55,515 bases of DNA from an uncultured Desulfobacterales bacterium (GCA_937998305.1 CALLDL010000060.1:1-55515), one strand, 5' to 3'. Numbered from the stretch's first letter, positions 24,171 through 55,515 are shown. A program made the numbers and translations. The notes: generated from the sequence alone by a model not told the origin.

Positions 24171-24285
24171 AAAGGCGGGTGGCTCAAATCGGTCAGGCAA
24201 CCCTGCCGCCATATCCTCTGGGTCTTAATTTTAGGATTTAGGCCAGTGGCTTTGCGTCCCACCCTTTCGGATGGTTTGCCTTTAT
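24171..24285 (-). ncRNA. GEMM-I (cyclic di-GMP-I class) riboswitch aptamer with putative terminator
   Basis: Minus strand: GGCAAACCATCCGAAAGGGTGGGACGCAAAGCCACTGGCCTAAATCC...GGATATGGCGGCAGGGTTGCC; GAAA tetraloop, CCTAAR/TATGG receptor and GGACGCAAAGCC core match the class. Confidence 0.9.
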
Positions 24286-24398
24286 TCAACCTTTTATTAT
24301 ATCGGACACTTTTTGTGAGAACTTTAAAAAAAACTCAAGTTTCACACCAAAATTACGATTTTGCCTTAAAAAATTTTCAATGAATAACTGTTTAACTC

Positions 24399-48360: not shown

Positions 48361-49359
48361 GCTTTTTCTTCAAATTTGAATTCCCCGCTGATTCCAGCGC
48401 TGGATGAATTCAAATAAATGATAAGATCCTTTCGAAAGCGAGAGTGCGGTAAAAATTCCAAAGTACCCCGAAGCTTGTTGGAGCACAGCGGAAATCCCGA
48501 TTCTTTTCCAAAATCTTGATCATCACTCCTGAGACAGACAGACGCATTTTTTTGCACAGAAAACTGTGCATCAATGCACAGAAAAATGTGCATATGACAA
48601 TCCTCTAAAAATCAAATACGCAAAATATCAATGGGTTAGGTTTTGGTACGCCTGTTGCACTTATAAGAGTGGTTAAGGGTCCCCGGTTAAATCCGCTTCG
48701 CTCCTTTTCTTCGAAAAATTTAACTTGGCCCCGATGACGGGATTTACGTTTCACTCCAACAAGCAGGGATCTGGGGCTAGGGGTTGGGTGTAAAGGACAG
48801 AGTAAGAGTTAGGGGTCTTGAGGTCAGGAGCTTTTGGGCACAAAGACGACAACCCGTATTTCTCACGACTTGATTCGTTCATTTGCAAGGCATTAGAGAT
48901 GAAGCTGTAGTATGTCTACCGCGAATCTCTTATAACGTAGAAAATGGGCGAATCAGGCTCGTCCGAAGGGTGAAAATTTTAACTTGTATTGAGGTTTAAC
49001 AAAAATGACAGAATGTTTTTATAAATTTATTAAAATTCTTCATGAGAAATTTGGGTTAGCACGACAATATTTTAAACTCATGTTTTAAATAGAGGTGGCC
49101 GAGGTGTAAAAAGCCCTGCGGGACATTTATGAATTTTATTACAAAATTGTATTTTCTCTTTCGAGTGTTATGCGTCATTTCGTAGACGGATAACACGCTC
49201 TAGCACTTTTTGGGTTTTTAATATAACATCTCGAATTTAAATTAAATTTATGATATAAGAATATAATCTGTCTCTAGTCTTACGCGTCTTTGAAAGACGC
49301 GTTTGTCAAAATATTTAGGTCGCATAATACTAGTTAGATGTTAATGAAAAATAATGTGA

Positions 49360-49668
49360 ATGATGAATAAGCTTGCTCAAGAGTTTAAAAAAAGAAAGAT
49401 ACGGCAGTGGTTAATCACAGTTTTCGGGCTTGGATGGTTTGTGGTTCTTTGTAGCTTGGTGATTTGGTCAGGGATACAAGTTAAGGAGCAAGGGGGATTG
49501 GCTCCTACACCAATTGGATATGTCTTAACGATAGTATTTGCCATCCTATTTATTCCCCCTATTTTGTTTCTAACCCATAAAAATTGGAGGTGCCCTTCAT
49601 GTGGGGTAGTTCTTGGACGATCAATAAATCCAAAAGTATGTCCAGGCTGCGGTCAAGCGTTGTCGTAG
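49360..49668 (+). CDS. Two-TM protein with C-terminal zinc ribbon (cassette gene)
   Basis: Two hydrophobic segments; CPSCGVVLGRSINPKVCPGCGQ. Confidence 0.7.
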   Translation: MMNKLAQEFKKRKIRQWLITVFGLGWFVVLCSLVIWSGIQVKEQGGLAPTPIGYVLTIVFAILFIPPILFLTHKNWRCPSCGVVLGRSINPKVCPGCGQALS

Positions 49669-49678
49669 ACGTGACTAC

Positions 49679-49753
49679 ATCTAACAAAGCAATTCAACGA
49701 GGACGCAAATTCCGCTGGCGCTCCATTTGCGCCTGTTAATTGAGCCGTTCTGC
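49679..49753 (+). other. attC-like site 1
   Basis: ATCTAAC...GACGCAAA-TTCCGCTGGCGCTCCA-TTTGCGCC...GCCGTTCTGC; imperfect hairpin, right core degenerate. Confidence 0.7.
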
Positions 49754-49756
49754 TTC

Positions 49757-50464
49757 ATGGAGGTGATTGTTGTGCAAATATTTTTTCCCTTAAAATACCT
49801 TAAAATCTTTCTGTCAATACTGATATTGCTTATTGGGATATCCGGAAATGTTGCTTTCAGTGCTGATTTCCTCAGGCATGATCATGACATTCTTGGGAAA
49901 ATTGTAGATTTTGATACGAGGAAACCCATTGCCGGTGTCGTCGTCTCGGCTATGTGGTTTACTTGGCCTGTTAGTTTATCCATTGAGCCTAAAATGAAAT
50001 ATTACGATTATTTTGAAACGCTAACCAACAAGGAAGGTAATTTCAGAATACCGGGAAAAGGTTTGAATATCATTAGGGATATGCCCCCACCGAAAATAGC
50101 GATTTTCAAGGCCGGTTATTCCATTTTGCATTTGCAGGACTTGGGTGCAAATTTCAAGCAAGACCACCCGCTGAGCGGTAAAGTAAAATGGATAGAAGGC
50201 AAACCGATCATTCCTTATAAAAGAAAATCATTAGAAAAAAGAAAAAGTTACCTCCGGACGCATCCACGGGTGCCGTTTAAGAAAATGGAGTATGTGATTG
50301 TTTCACAAGAAAAAACTCGGCAATTCATAGAGGAGCTTAGAAGGGAATATAAGGCAGTTGGCATGACGCCAACTCAACTAAATGATCAGCAATATTTGCG
50401 GTATAAGAATGGAGGTGTTTTCCCTTCTGAAGAAACATCGGTAAAACGGAAATCATCTGAGTGA
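49757..50464 (+). CDS. Secreted hypothetical protein with carboxypeptidase-regulatory-like fold (cassette gene)
   Basis: Signal peptide/TM then HDILGKIVDFDTRKPIAGVVVSA...NKEGNFRIPGKG. Confidence 0.65.
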   Translation: MEVIVVQIFFPLKYLKIFLSILILLIGISGNVAFSADFLRHDHDILGKIVDFDTRKPIAGVVVSAMWFTWPVSLSIEPKMKYYDYFETLTNKEGNFRIPGKGLNIIRDMPPPKIAIFKAGYSILHLQDLGANFKQDHPLSGKVKWIEGKPIIPYKRKSLEKRKSYLRTHPRVPFKKMEYVIVSQEKTRQFIEELRREYKAVGMTPTQLNDQQYLRYKNGGVFPSEETSVKRKSSE

Positions 50465-50503
50465 CAGGGGAATAGCGGTATTTTTCTGTTATGAAAAATC
50501 AGA

Positions 50504-50577
50504 GCATAACCATAGGATTCACTCGGATGTGAGTGCTGTTGGCGCTTCACTCACACCGGTAATTCTAGTCGTTATGT
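50504..50577 (+). other. attC-like site 2
   Basis: GCATAACCATAGGATTCACTCGGATGTGAGTG...CACTCACACCGGTAATTCTAGTCGTTATGT imperfect inverted repeat. Confidence 0.8.
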
Positions 50578-50603
50578 TGCGCAAGACGGGAAAGTTCTGA
50601 ACC

Positions 50604-51266
50604 ATGGTCGAAGAATCAGGGCAACAAGAACCACTTGCCGAACATGTATACGATAAGCGGGTCAAGGAATACGGATGGGTTGGTCCAGAGGTTGCGTTCG
50701 GCCTAGCGTATGAGTATACGAGTCCTGGCCAAACCATACTCGACGTAGGTATTGGGACGGGGCTTGGATCCGTTTTGTTTCAAAGGGCAGGTATGGTTGT
50801 CTATGGGCTGGATAACTCCGATGCAATGCTGGATATTTGTCGAAGGAAGGGGTTCGCGTCGGATCTTCAGTTACATGATATGAACAAGTTGCCGTATCCC
50901 TACGATGAGGAGTCTCTTGATCACGCCGTATGCATTGGGGCACTCCAGTACTTCGAGAATATCCAGCCAGTAATCGAAGAGTTGGCCCGAATCATTCGGG
51001 AAAGTGGGATATTCGTGTTCACCGTTCTGGACCGAAGCCCCTCCGAGAGCGCGGCAATGGTTTTGGGGCCCGAAATTACCGACTCGGGTTCTACGGATAC
51101 GATATACCGACATAGCACAGCACAGATCAGCGAATATCTTCAGGTCTGCGGTTTTGAGTCGGTCAAGTCTCTTGAGTTCAACATGTTCATGGATCGAGAG
51201 CAGAGGCGTAAGTCTCCTGTAAAGACCTACGTGGCTATGAAGCGCAGCATAACCCATAAGGATTGA
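50604..51266 (+). CDS. Class I SAM-dependent methyltransferase (cassette gene)
   Basis: ILDVGIGTGLGSVLFQRAGMVVYGLDNSDAML. Confidence 0.9.
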   Translation: MVEESGQQEPLAEHVYDKRVKEYGWVGPEVAFGLAYEYTSPGQTILDVGIGTGLGSVLFQRAGMVVYGLDNSDAMLDICRRKGFASDLQLHDMNKLPYPYDEESLDHAVCIGALQYFENIQPVIEELARIIRESGIFVFTVLDRSPSESAAMVLGPEITDSGSTDTIYRHSTAQISEYLQVCGFESVKSLEFNMFMDREQRRKSPVKTYVAMKRSITHKD

Positions 51267-51362
51267 CACGACCTGAAAGGTCGTTTTCAATCTATTGTTC
51301 AAGAAGGTCGGTTTTGTGACGCAACGGTCCAGGTGGCGCAGCTGAAGCCCCAGACGTTATTT
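51247..51362 (+). other. attC-like site 3
   Basis: GCATAACCCATAAGGATTGACACGACC...GCAGCTGAAGCCCCAGACGTTATTT; overlaps the methyltransferase stop. Confidence 0.6.
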
Positions 51363-51396
51363 AGGTTTCGGAACACAACATTTATTAAAGGTTAAT

Positions 51397-52068
51397 TTGT
51401 ATTCAAGAAGGATGACACTTATTGTAATTATCAGCGTTATCGCTTCCTTTTCTATTAGGACGTTCGGTACAATTTTTCCTCAGATATTTAAGAATATTCT
51501 TATAGTTAAAGCAACAATTCTGATTAATGCTTTATTCATATTGTCCCATCTTCTTTTCTGGCTGGTCTTTTACTGGGAATACATATCTACTGAGAAAGTC
51601 ACACTAAAAAAGACTTGCATACTTGCCATAATTGGATCTTTCGCCGTATCCGCTAATTACATGAAAAAACTCCCATTTGTATTTGGTATGAACATTCATT
51701 TTCCACTATTTCTTATGATTCCATATTTTGAAGCTGTTGTGCCATTAATAAGCTCTGCTTTTCATCTTATTTTTTTTGTTAGTTTCAAAAAATCACTTGA
51801 GCTTGACGAACAGCCAAGGCTAAGTAAGCCTATATTATCAATTATCATTGGAATTTCCATTTATATCTGTCTTCATTTGATTGTCCTTTTCAATTTCCTT
51901 GCAACAGATAGATTTGAATGGCTTGAACATATGCCGAAAGTTGTTGCTGTTAGCACTGTTCCATTAATTATCGTAGCTGTTTTTTCAATTCTATTTTTTT
52001 ATTATAGATTCTACTATTTCTTAGATTCAGGTTATAAAATTGAAACTGGAAATGAACGTTCATTATAA
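51397..52068 (+). CDS. Multi-TM membrane protein of unknown function (cassette gene)
   Basis: ~6 hydrophobic segments. Confidence 0.6.
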   Translation: MYSRRMTLIVIISVIASFSIRTFGTIFPQIFKNILIVKATILINALFILSHLLFWLVFYWEYISTEKVTLKKTCILAIIGSFAVSANYMKKLPFVFGMNIHFPLFLMIPYFEAVVPLISSAFHLIFFVSFKKSLELDEQPRLSKPILSIIIGISIYICLHLIVLFNFLATDRFEWLEHMPKVVAVSTVPLIIVAVFSILFFYYRFYYFLDSGYKIETGNERSL

Positions 52069-52072
52069 AATA

Positions 52073-52152
52073 ATCCAACATGACAACCGCATCAACTCGG
52101 ACTGGCAATTCTACTGCGCTCCATTGACAGACGGTTATACGGGACGTTATAT
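52073..52152 (+). other. attC-like site 4
   Basis: ATCCAAC...ACTGGCAA-TTCTACTGCGCTCCA-TTGACAGAC...ACGTTATAT; loop resembles site 1 loop. Confidence 0.7.
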
Positions 52153-52233
52153 TTAATAGTCCCAAATATATCTTGCATTTTGTTTCTAACAATGCTTACA
52201 ATGTATTACATCAAAATACATTGGAGGTGACGT

Positions 52234-52452
52234 ATGAGCACAGCAATTTCAGTAAGAATACCAGACCAACTCGCATCAAAACTAACCGAAATTTCAAAGG
52301 AAACAGAAAGGCCAAAATCTTTTCACATCCAAAAGGCTCTGGAGGCCTATTTAACCGAACTTGCCGACATTCAGGTAGCCATTGATCGATTACACGATAC
52401 ATCTGACCCTGTTATTTCCATCGAAGATATGAGGAAAGAGCTTGAGCTATAA
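52234..52452 (+). CDS. RHH/CopG-type antitoxin
   Basis: TAISVRIPDQLASKLTEISKETERPKSFHIQKALEAYL. Confidence 0.88.
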   Translation: MSTAISVRIPDQLASKLTEISKETERPKSFHIQKALEAYLTELADIQVAIDRLHDTSDPVISIEDMRKELEL

Positions 52453-52693
52453 AATTGCGTTCAAAAAGTCCGTCTCCCGAGACCTGAAGAAATTAAGCAG
52501 AGATGATGCGGAAAGAATTCTGGATAAAATAGAGCAGGATCTACCTGAAAAAGCGGATACTTTTCCTCTATTAACAGGCAAATTTGCAGGTTTGCGGAAG
52601 TTTAGAATCGGGGACTATCGAGTCATTTACACTATTATTAAAAACACGGCTCTTATTCTAAGGATTAGCCATAGGCGGGATGCCTACAGATAA
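52442..52693 (+). CDS. RelE/ParE-family toxin
   Basis: YKIAFKKSVSRDLKKLSRDDAERILDKIEQD...GDYRVIYTI...HRRDAYR; overlaps antitoxin. Confidence 0.9.
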   Translation: MSYKIAFKKSVSRDLKKLSRDDAERILDKIEQDLPEKADTFPLLTGKFAGLRKFRIGDYRVIYTIIKNTALILRISHRRDAYR

Positions 52694-52694
52694 A

Positions 52695-52822
52695 ATATAA
52701 CCAGTCGTTCCACTCGGACGGCGGAGATCCTCGTCCTCTTTGAAATATTTTTCTTGAGATCTATCTGTAACTTTTAAAATTATTCTGTGTAATACCCGCA
52801 GCCGGTGAACTCTTTGTTATGC
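52695..52822 (+). other. attC-like site 5
   Basis: ATATAACCAGTCGTTCCACTCGGACGGCG...GCAGCCGGTGAACTCTTTGTTATGC. Confidence 0.7.
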
Positions 52823-52860
52823 GGGAAAAAAGACTAAACCAAAAGGAGGTTTCAGAAAAG

Positions 52861-53721
52861 ATGAGATCAATTGACTGCAGCACCCAAGTTTGCGCGGTTA
52901 TTGGTAATCCAGTTGCGCACAGCCTTTCACCGGCAATTCACAATGCCGCCTTTGAGTTTTTGGACCTGAATTTCATCTATGTGGCGTGTCCGGTCGAGGA
53001 CGTAAAAGGTGCATTAGCAGGCATGCGTGCGATAAAAAACTTTCGAGGAATGAGTGTCACTATTCCGCACAAAATTGAAGTAATGAAATATATGGATGAA
53101 ATTGCGACCGTGGACCGTAACATTGGTTCAATAAATACGGTTCTTCATGAACAGGACAAGTTGGTCGGATTGGGCACGGATGGAATTGGTGCACTAAAGG
53201 CTCTCATTGATAGCGGTGTAGCAATTGATGGTAAGAACATCTTGATGTTGGGAGCTGGAGGTGCAGCGAGGGCGATTTCCTTTACTCTTGCCCAGAATAC
53301 CAAGCTGGGGGAACTTTCAATTCTCGATATTGATGAAGCTCTGCTTCAGGAATTGAAGACTGATCTGGAGACCGGTACGGGTGCCGTCATCAAGTCCGGG
53401 TTGATAAGTGAGAACGCTCTGGCGGTAGAGATGGAAAAAACGGATTTAATCATCAATTGTACGCCGGTCGGCATGCATCCAAACGTTGATGCCTCTCTAA
53501 TATCTCCTGGGTTATTTCGACCTGAACAGGTTGTCTTTGATATTGTGTATACGCCCCTTGAAACGAAACTGCTGGCCGAGGCCAAGTCTCGCGGCCTTAA
53601 GGTGATTCCCGGAGTTGAGATGTTTATCAACCAAGCGGCTCTGCAGTTTGAACATTTCACCGGCGTTGACGCGCCTGTCGAGGTTATGCGTCGAGTAGTA
53701 ATGGAGCATCTACAATCATGA
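52861..53721 (+). CDS. aroE: Shikimate dehydrogenase (ORF track start 52819)
   Basis: VIGNPVAHSLSPAIHNAAF, MSVTIPHKIEVM; AAAAGGAGG before ATG 52861. Confidence 0.93.
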   Translation: MRSIDCSTQVCAVIGNPVAHSLSPAIHNAAFEFLDLNFIYVACPVEDVKGALAGMRAIKNFRGMSVTIPHKIEVMKYMDEIATVDRNIGSINTVLHEQDKLVGLGTDGIGALKALIDSGVAIDGKNILMLGAGGAARAISFTLAQNTKLGELSILDIDEALLQELKTDLETGTGAVIKSGLISENALAVEMEKTDLIINCTPVGMHPNVDASLISPGLFRPEQVVFDIVYTPLETKLLAEAKSRGLKVIPGVEMFINQAALQFEHFTGVDAPVEVMRRVVMEHLQS

Positions 53722-54254
53722 ACATAGTACTGATCGGATATCGTGGTACAGGAAAGAGTGTAGTAGGAAAGCTTGTCTCCGAGCGCCTCCAGATAAAGTG
53801 TATTGCTATGGATGCGAGAATAGTTGAGGAGGCCGGAATGTCAATTCCAGATATTGTGGAAAATCATGGCTGGACGACATTCCGCGATATGGAATCTGAA
53901 GTCACCAGGGAGTTGGCAAAGCTTGACAACATTATTATTGATACGGGTGGGGGTGTTATTGAAAGGCCGGAAAATATTGATGTCCTGCAAGCGAACTCCT
54001 GTATTATTTGGCTCAAGGCTTCAGTAGGCGTGATCGTCTCGCGTATTCAAGGAGGCATTGAAAGACCCTCTTTGACTGGTGAAAAAAGCTTCACTGAAGA
54101 GGTGACAGAAGTTTTGGAGCGAAGGACTCCAAAATACACGAGTGCCGCTCAATACGAAATTGATACAGAACAACTAACACCAGAGCAGGTCGCAGACAGA
54201 ATAATTAAAATCTGGAAGAAAGGAGATTGCACAAGAAGTACTCAAGGAAGATAG
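53718..54254 (+). CDS. aroK: Shikimate kinase
   Basis: IVLIGYRGTGKSVVGKLVSERL, ATGA overlap with aroE. Confidence 0.92.
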   Translation: MNIVLIGYRGTGKSVVGKLVSERLQIKCIAMDARIVEEAGMSIPDIVENHGWTTFRDMESEVTRELAKLDNIIIDTGGGVIERPENIDVLQANSCIIWLKASVGVIVSRIQGGIERPSLTGEKSFTEEVTEVLERRTPKYTSAAQYEIDTEQLTPEQVADRIIKIWKKGDCTRSTQGR

Positions 54255-54256
54255 GT

Positions 54257-54347
54257 GCCCGTCACTGCAACTGACAGCCAGGACGGAGCGGTTTTGCAAG
54301 ATTGTAAATCCTTGTTACCCTGGCTGCCGCTGAGCTCGGCGTTGGAT
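54257..54347 (+). other. attC-like site 6 (left core degenerate)
   Basis: GACAGCCAGG...CCTGGCTGCCGCTGAGCTCGGCGTTGGAT; right core GTTGGAT fits GTTRRRY. Confidence 0.6.
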
Positions 54348-54429
54348 GTCTCCCGATAGTTCTTTAGGATTGAAAGGAACAAAACAATAACCCTTGACGA
54401 TAGTATCTTTTTGGGTTATTATATTTGCA

Positions 54430-54711
54430 ATGATCAAAATATTTAAATGCAAAGAGACTGAGAAAATATTTCAAGGTCAGTTCTCTAAAAAACTGCCCCA
54501 TGACATACAGCGACTTGCAGAAAGAAAACTCATTATGATCCATAGAGCGGGCAATCTTAGTGATCTTCGAGTCCCACCTGCAAACCGGCTGGAGAAATTG
54601 AGTGGCAACCGTGAAAGACAGCACAGTATACGAATAAACGACCAGTGGCGTATTTGTTTCGAATGGCGTGAAGAGGGTGTATGCGGTGTTGAGATAGTTG
54701 ATTATCACTGA
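54430..54711 (+). CDS. higB: HigB-like toxin (ORF track start 54394)
   Basis: RLAERKLIMIHRAGNLSDLRVPPANRLEKLSGNRERQHSIRINDQWRICF. Confidence 0.9.
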   Translation: MIKIFKCKETEKIFQGQFSKKLPHDIQRLAERKLIMIHRAGNLSDLRVPPANRLEKLSGNRERQHSIRINDQWRICFEWREEGVCGVEIVDYH

Positions 54712-54722
54712 GGAGGTAATAC

Positions 54723-55022
54723 ATGAGAGATTTCCCGCCAACACACCCTGGCGAAATATTGCTTGAGGAATTTTTAAAGCCAATGGGAATAACCCAGTAC
54801 CGGCTTGCAAAAGATATTGGCGTTCCTGCTATGCGAATTAGCAAAATTGTTCGCGGTGAAAGAGGTATTAGTGCTGACACAGCTTTAAGGCTGGCCCGAT
54901 ATTTTGGGATGTCTGTTGATTTTTGGACAGGTATTCAAGTCCATTATGACACTGAAATGGCCAAAATGAATTTGGGAAATCGATTAGAGAGAGAAGTCAA
55001 AGTTCTTGTTCCAGCAGCCTGA
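54723..55022 (+). CDS. higA: HigA-family antitoxin (XRE)
   Basis: PPTHPGEILLEEFLKPMGITQYRLAKDIGVP. Confidence 0.93.
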   Translation: MRDFPPTHPGEILLEEFLKPMGITQYRLAKDIGVPAMRISKIVRGERGISADTALRLARYFGMSVDFWTGIQVHYDTEMAKMNLGNRLEREVKVLVPAA

Positions 55023-55049
55023 AAATCAATCAATCCTCTTATATCCAGC

Positions 55050-55177
55050 ATCCAACAAAAGCTTGGAGGCAGACGCCTAAAACCCCCTCGGGTTGAAACC
55101 AATTTGGTTTCTCGGCATTCCATCAATTTTCGAACATTTTCGTTACTTTAACGGCGTGCTCAAGCTTGGCGTTATAT
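55050..55177 (+). other. attC-like site 7
   Basis: ATCCAACAAAAGCTTGGAGGCAGACGCC...ACGGCGTGCTCAAGCTTGGCGTTATAT; arms strongly complementary. Confidence 0.75.
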
Positions 55178-55203
55178 TGCTGGTAATGAAGTGAAATAAA
55201 CTC

Positions 55204-55515
55204 ATGAAAGCGATTTTACACACAAAATTCGGACCACCGGATGAACTTCAGTCCAAAGAGGTAGATAAACCTGTTCCCAGGGACAATGAAGTACTGATAA
55301 AAATACATGCGACAACAGTAACAAGCACGGACTGTAACGCTCGTAATTTCACATTTGTCCCTAAAGTGTTTCAGCTCCCCGCGCGACTGTTCTTTTTTGG
55401 TATCTTCAGACCAAGAATAAATATACTGGGGTTTGATCTGGCCGGAGAAATTGAGGCGGTCGGCAAAGATGTAAAACGATTTAAAGAAGGTGACCAGGTT
55501 TTTGGAACACCCGGC
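55204..55515 (+). CDS. Zinc-type alcohol dehydrogenase/quinone reductase-like protein, truncated by window end
   Basis: MKAILHTKFGPPDELQSKEVDKPVPRDNEVLIKIHATTVTSTDCNAR...GFDLAGEIEAVGKDVKRFKEGDQVFG. Confidence 0.88.
   Translation, partial: MKAILHTKFGPPDELQSKEVDKPVPRDNEVLIKIHATTVTSTDCNARNFTFVPKVFQLPARLFFFGIFRPRINILGFDLAGEIEAVGKDVKRFKEGDQVFGTPG

Follow-up and report, generated by a model that had tools for sequence, protein, structure and literature searches.

Reverse, or codirectional, chromosomal integrons are known, for example in Treponema denticola (PMC3607928, PMC4909258), where intI is read toward attI on the strand of the cassettes, attI lies between the two and the cassettes carry attC sites. 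The locus described here has the same layout, but it belongs to a member of the Desulfobacterales, retains only a 3′ stump of intI and has an attI motif repeated at several sites in a genome. It also resembles the clusters of attC sites lacking an integrase (CALINs), whose modes of origin have been described (PMC8618304), and fits the route termed 'loss of a recognisable intI'. Unlike CALINs as described there, it keeps attI and an intI scar, so that its origin is readable, and most of its attC sites are decayed. Two further comparisons concern the insertion target. At the attG sites reported by Loot et al. 2024 (doi 10.1038/s41564-023-01548-y), cassettes are found at dispersed chromosomal GTT positions, as in our case, but the target there is a loose consensus and here it is a conserved attI. 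In the delta-attI-type cassettes of class 1 and 2 integrons (PMC12901181), attI fragments likewise stand at unusual places among cassettes; there attI replaces attC, whereas the copies described below precede cassettes at separate chromosomal loci.

The window analysed is the whole 55,515-nt stretch of DNA, which is the entire contig C60 of the assembly of an uncultured Desulfobacterales bacterium (G000; 239 contigs, 88.55% complete). The original prediction of integron cassettes with no integrase in the window, possibly a CALIN, is supported: two or more attC sites are present and an intact intI is lacking in their vicinity. The locus is very probably the attI-proximal portion of a chromosomal integron of the reverse type whose intI has eroded, and is formally a CALIN. 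The sequence itself shows attI, the intI tail, their layout, the own-start matches of cassettes 1, 5, 7 and 9, where cassette 5 begins on its left side, and the contig join. The locus provides a readable case of CALIN origin, with attI and the intI scar still in place, and documents codirectional integrons in the Desulfobacterales.

The intI remnant and attI at the left edge

The intI remnant (49055–49132, + strand) preserves ~25 codons from the 3′ end of an integron integrase gene, interrupted by a stop (VSTTIF*THVLNRGGRGVKSPAGHL*), and is codirectional with the cassettes. The IntI of G035 matches it in tblastn with an E value of 5e-5, most of 22 IntI queries match the same place, and a 61-nt stretch shares 80% DNA identity with the 3′-terminal sequence of the intact intI in G064. 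The searched sequence upstream of the remnant gave no additional similarity to intI. The remnant is short, which is a caveat on the favoured explanation. The earlier statement that no intI is visible holds for an intact gene, but overlooks this same-orientation tail, whose direction is that of a reverse integron and not of the usual divergent layout.

Neither the final 15.5 kb of the window nor C88, the contig that continues the array, contains an intact intI, and no protein of the 88.55% complete G000 assembly exceeds the 265-bit cut-off of the IntI profile, TIGR02249. Assembly incompleteness makes an intI elsewhere in G000 possible. The IntI-like proteins of G000 were rejected as IntI: the best reaches 85 bits against 265, in a two-piece match that leaves profile positions ~181–240 unmatched, and we read these proteins as XerC/D-like.

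The attI region, or leader, spans 49133–49335 on the + strand, with its core, TTGTCAAAATATTTAGGTCGCATAATACTAGTT, at 49303–49335. The core lies ~170 nt after the intI tail, so that the relic retains the adjacency of attI and intI. Crossover probably takes place between G49333 and T49334, and the GTTAGAT at 49333, put forward in the original prediction as a possible left boundary, is indeed the junction of attI and cassette. The region contains a weak promoter-like pair (TTGTCA-17-AATACT), and a promoter scan of it gave no score above shuffled sequences; the first cassette may be expressed from this element.

Assignment of the leader as the attI of a codirectional integron follows from G064, a genome of another family, because a homologue sits there between an intact intI and cassettes. 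The G064 IntI has 327 residues and scores 464 bits against the cut-off of 265. At 263 nt past the end of the intI match comes TTTTTTTAGGCCGTATAATATAAT|GTTAGCT, followed by the cassettes. The intI gene, the attI homologue, the cassettes and four attC sites all lie on one strand, so that codirectionality of intI and cassettes is seen in both the relic tail and an intact locus. A G064 attC site is detected by the covariance model at E 3.7e-5, and the first R″ is the exact reverse complement of its own cassette start. The proposed homology of the G064 attI rests on a short core, which is to be kept in mind as a caveat.

A copy of the leader is found at another locus in G002, of the same genus, where positions 49092–49336 recur with 83.7% identity over 245 nt. 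The similarity ends at GTT, a different cassette lies beyond, and the R″ of the unit behind the leader is exactly complementary to that unit's start. Two other identities for the leader were discarded. It is not the attC of a gene-less cassette, as it has no conserved R″, and it is not the ordinary divergent attI of the family, as those at G003, G015, G018 and G022 look different.

These sequences also bear on an origin by off-target insertion, in which an IntI encoded elsewhere would have placed cassettes at an attG-like GTT and the leader would be only a favoured genomic target. Such an origin agrees with the intI of same-genus G003, which has the usual divergent layout, and with the occurrence of the leader at numerous loci that lack an adjacent intact intI. 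We nevertheless consider it unlikely, given that an intI tail directly precedes the leader in the window, that the same short tail is present in G002 and G019, and that the G064 homologue stands between intact intI and cassettes; together these mark an integron platform.

A further alternative to the eroded reverse integron, our preferred reading, is the suggestion that the array is the distal part of a chromosomal integron; its intI would then lie a long way to the left or in a different contig. The fragmentation of the assembly and its lack of an IntI match above the cut-off speak for this. The attI core at 49303–49335 and the 3′ stump of intI identify the left edge as the proximal end, however, and the gene calls of the window to the left of them give ilvD and ordinary genes. 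A distal position is very improbable, and this part of the original prediction is not sustained.

The array occupies a lineage-variable segment, because the ilvD-side flank lies close to C88 positions in two genomes of the same genus. In G001, 513 nt separate the end of the flank (48370) from C88:6390; in G004, 89 nt separate it from C88:8493. Gain in G000 and loss in G001 and G004 are both possible. Repeats scattered among the family's genomes make up part of the intergenic segment at 48370–49050. Elsewhere in the window, a c-di-GMP-I riboswitch (81 bits) is found on the − strand at 24193–24290.

Cassettes and attC sites

All genes from 49.36 kb to the window end lie on the + strand, confirming the gene orientation originally proposed for the array, and the following features are on that strand. 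Cassette 1 (49333–49753) encodes a zinc-ribbon-like membrane protein of 102 aa (49360–49668) and ends with attC1 (49679–49753), whose R″, ATCTAAC, is the exact reverse complement of the cassette's own start, GTTAGAT, in a 9-nt run. Cassette 2 (49747–50577) contains an ORF without a family match (49772–50464) and attC2 (50504–50577), the site with the top structural score of the window. Cassette 3 (50571–51362) carries a class I methyltransferase gene (50604–51266) and a weak attC3 (51247–51362), of which only the left 69 nt recur, at 91% identity, in an IntI-bearing contig of G022. Cassette 4 (51356–52152) encodes a membrane protein without a family match (51397–52068) and ends with attC4 (52078–52152). 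This site is 83% identical over 72 nt to an attC of G026 (GCATAACAACCGC...) that the covariance model detects, and the similarity ends at R″ and R′. By this homology the real R″ is ACATGAC (52078–52084), a mutated form of ..AAC, and the core ATCCAAC at 52073 assigned to site 4 in the original prediction is replaced.

Cassette 5 (52146–52822) encodes RelB-like (52234–52452) and RelE/ParE-like (52442–52693) proteins, followed by attC5 (52695–52822), with an R″ that is the exact reverse complement of its own start. Cassette 6 (52816–54347) carries two genes of amino-acid biosynthesis: aroE, with a likely start at 52861 and an end at 53721, and aroK (53718–54254). Its attC6 is decayed. The right arm is normal and R′ (GTTGGAT, 54341–54347) is present as originally described; of the left arm a remnant from ~54261 persists, and R″ is lost. 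Cassette 7 (54341–55177) encodes HigB-like (54394–54711) and HigA (54723–55022) proteins and ends with attC7 (55050–55177), where R″, ATCCAAC, exactly matches the reverse complement of its own start, GTTGGAT. Cassette 8 (55171–55515), whose gene belongs to the zinc-type alcohol dehydrogenase/quinone oxidoreductase family, is cut by the contig end.

The array continues on contig C88, whose first 84 nt repeat the end of the window. The join is spanned continuously by a G010 gene corresponding to that of cassette 8 (987 nt, 87%); the sharing with G010 is seen for the gene itself. Cassette 8 is closed by attC8 (C88:763–834), which shares 93% identity across 68 nt with an attC on a G075 contig that also carries IntI. 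Cassette 9, encoding an amidohydrolase, extends to C88:1922 and its R″ is an exact own-start match. C88 carries two attC sites, both found by the second of the covariance models described below, with E 0.003 (the best hit in its own genome) and 21 bits. Including C88, the array covers ~8.0 kb and holds at least nine cassettes.

The core letters quoted in the original prediction are all present in the window. The predicted palindromes stand at sites 1, 2, 5 and 7, where the bottom strand folds into long stems with extrahelical bases; site 3 is weak, site 4 irregular and site 6 without R″. A structural energy scan was abandoned as an attC detector, as stem energy does not discriminate. Two covariance models were used, one built from class-1 attC sites only and one from class-1 sites plus attC sites of relatives, with the window sites excluded from training. 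The first found none of the seven window sites. With the second, site 1 is the top window match (E 0.88) and most others score at background, an outcome that had been named beforehand as grounds for refutation. This model does detect untrained attC sites beside intI in relatives. Most window sites are divergent or decayed.

Integron R″ sequences are expected to pair with the start of their own cassette and not with the adjacent R′. In the array, R″ agrees with the own cassette start at 25 of 32 variable positions and with the adjacent R′ at 14 of 32, and the match to the own start is exact for cassettes 1, 5, 7 and 9. In a permutation test, 384 of 40,320 arrangements reach 25 matches (p = 0.0095). 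Exchange of a cassette as a unit is seen for the RelBE cassette, which recurs in G010, of another genus, with 90.8% identity over 618 nt. The similarity begins at GTT (CGTTATATTT), as anticipated for cassette boundaries in related genomes, and the sequence before the GTT is unrelated; the right attC arm is lost or decayed there.

We consider that this comparative evidence outweighs the background covariance-model scores. Those scores at most window sites, together with unexceptional stem energies, would suit an ordinary run of genes separated by unrelated palindromes, without any integron. The GTT boundary of the shared RelBE cassette, own-start matching, the attC sites of C88, attI and the intI tail together make that explanation barely credible. 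In the reverse-integron reading, intI, attI and the cassettes would have followed one another in this order on one strand. Each cassette would have entered as a circle, the bottom strand of its attC being folded and recombined by IntI with G|TT, either in attI or in a resident attC. Nearly all of intI would later have been lost, leaving the 3′ tail, and decay of several attC sites would have frozen the array at its nine or more cassettes. Site 6, behind aroE–aroK and without R″, should not act alone as an exchange point. We infer that IntI acted at the array in the past, and the array would now be immobile unless IntI acts in trans.

Dispersed copies of the attI core

Among 390 relatives, 10 have the attI core, with 18 copies in all and up to five per genome, and the reversed core pattern is absent from all 390 genomes. 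The family of the window accounts for 17 of the 18 (one each in G000, G002, G005, G012, G014, G020 and G023 plus a second in G023, four in G019 and five in G010), and the remaining match comes from G059, a member of a different family. The loci retrieved around the copies yielded no intact intI. Short intI tails precede the G002 and G019 C155 copies, as weak matches of 10–13 residues, with an additional 26 nt at 96% for the G019 tail. In G020, an intI fragment lies 3.8 kb upstream of the attI copy. G020 contains two copies of such a fragment (L240:6399–6890 and L241:8562–8071); in tblastn their best match is the same and covers identical residues (56.7%).

Signs of cassettes, of differing strength, are found behind eight of the 18 copies (about half). 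An exact R″ lies behind those of G000, G002, G019 C155, G019 C232 and G010 C105, the G012 copy is followed by a covariance-model match (E 0.12), and a cassette shared between G010 C86 and G000 C56 is a further sign. The last is in G010, where dapF (C1; L212:4015–4860) stands shortly behind an attI copy and its end reads TTCTAAC, the complement of the GTTAGAA just before the gene. A hisF-like gene (C86; L243:7605–8384) also lies shortly behind a copy; its 277 bits fall short of the hisF cut-off (294.55). At the same two G010 loci, L212 and L243, dapF and a 148-aa ORF are each followed by the same palindromic element, starting TCTAACATCTATATGGCCTTCG.

Own-start matching was compared between 16 leaders and control GTT positions. 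A stringent test combining attC with an own-start match is passed by 2 of 16 leaders and 0.4% of controls (p 0.002), and misses the window's own site. Exact own-start matches of 9 nt occur behind 3 of 16 leaders (controls 1.3%, p 0.001), of 8 nt behind 4 (4.7%, p 0.006) and of 7 nt behind 5 (14.7%, p 0.07). The statistical backing for own-start matching behind leaders is moderate.

The copies could be either separate decayed integrons or a dispersed landing site. A tentative extension, which we hold to be possible though doubtful, is that the reverse-integron attI of this family is a dispersed element. Each genome would have several copies at separate loci, those examined having no intact intI next to them, and every copy would bring a promoter-like core with cassettes behind it and be served in trans by an IntI encoded elsewhere. 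If so, cassettes would be distributed in numerous small arrays that are expressed, and genes of core biosynthesis (aroE–aroK, dapF, perhaps hisF) could travel in this way. The repeated copies raise the question of whether there are dedicated chromosomal landing sites for cassettes away from the integrase.

The aroE–aroK cassette

The aroE–aroK pair is widespread among Desulfobacterales, is present in some other bins too, and has varied neighbours. On a contig labelled Actinomycetota (L018:1000–2481), an attC lies directly upstream of an aroE–aroK pair with 79% and 78% protein identity to that of the window, which could reflect transfer or mis-binning.

The cassette aroE is the sole aroE in the G000 assembly. 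In G001–G003 (L165, L166 and L167), a different aroE with ~40% identity is located in an aro operon, together with a gene that we read as encoding DHQ synthase II. The idea that an essential aroE is carried only by a cassette was dropped as unprovable, given the G000 gaps in DHQ synthase II and aroA. Because DHQ synthase II and a true aroA are missing from the assembly (88.55% complete), an assembly gap is the likely cause; the 23% match of the aroA query in G000 probably represents MurA. As cargo the aroE–aroK cassette is unusual, because genes of amino acid transport and metabolism have been reported to be depleted among integron genes, with an odds ratio of 0.18 (PMC7370490).
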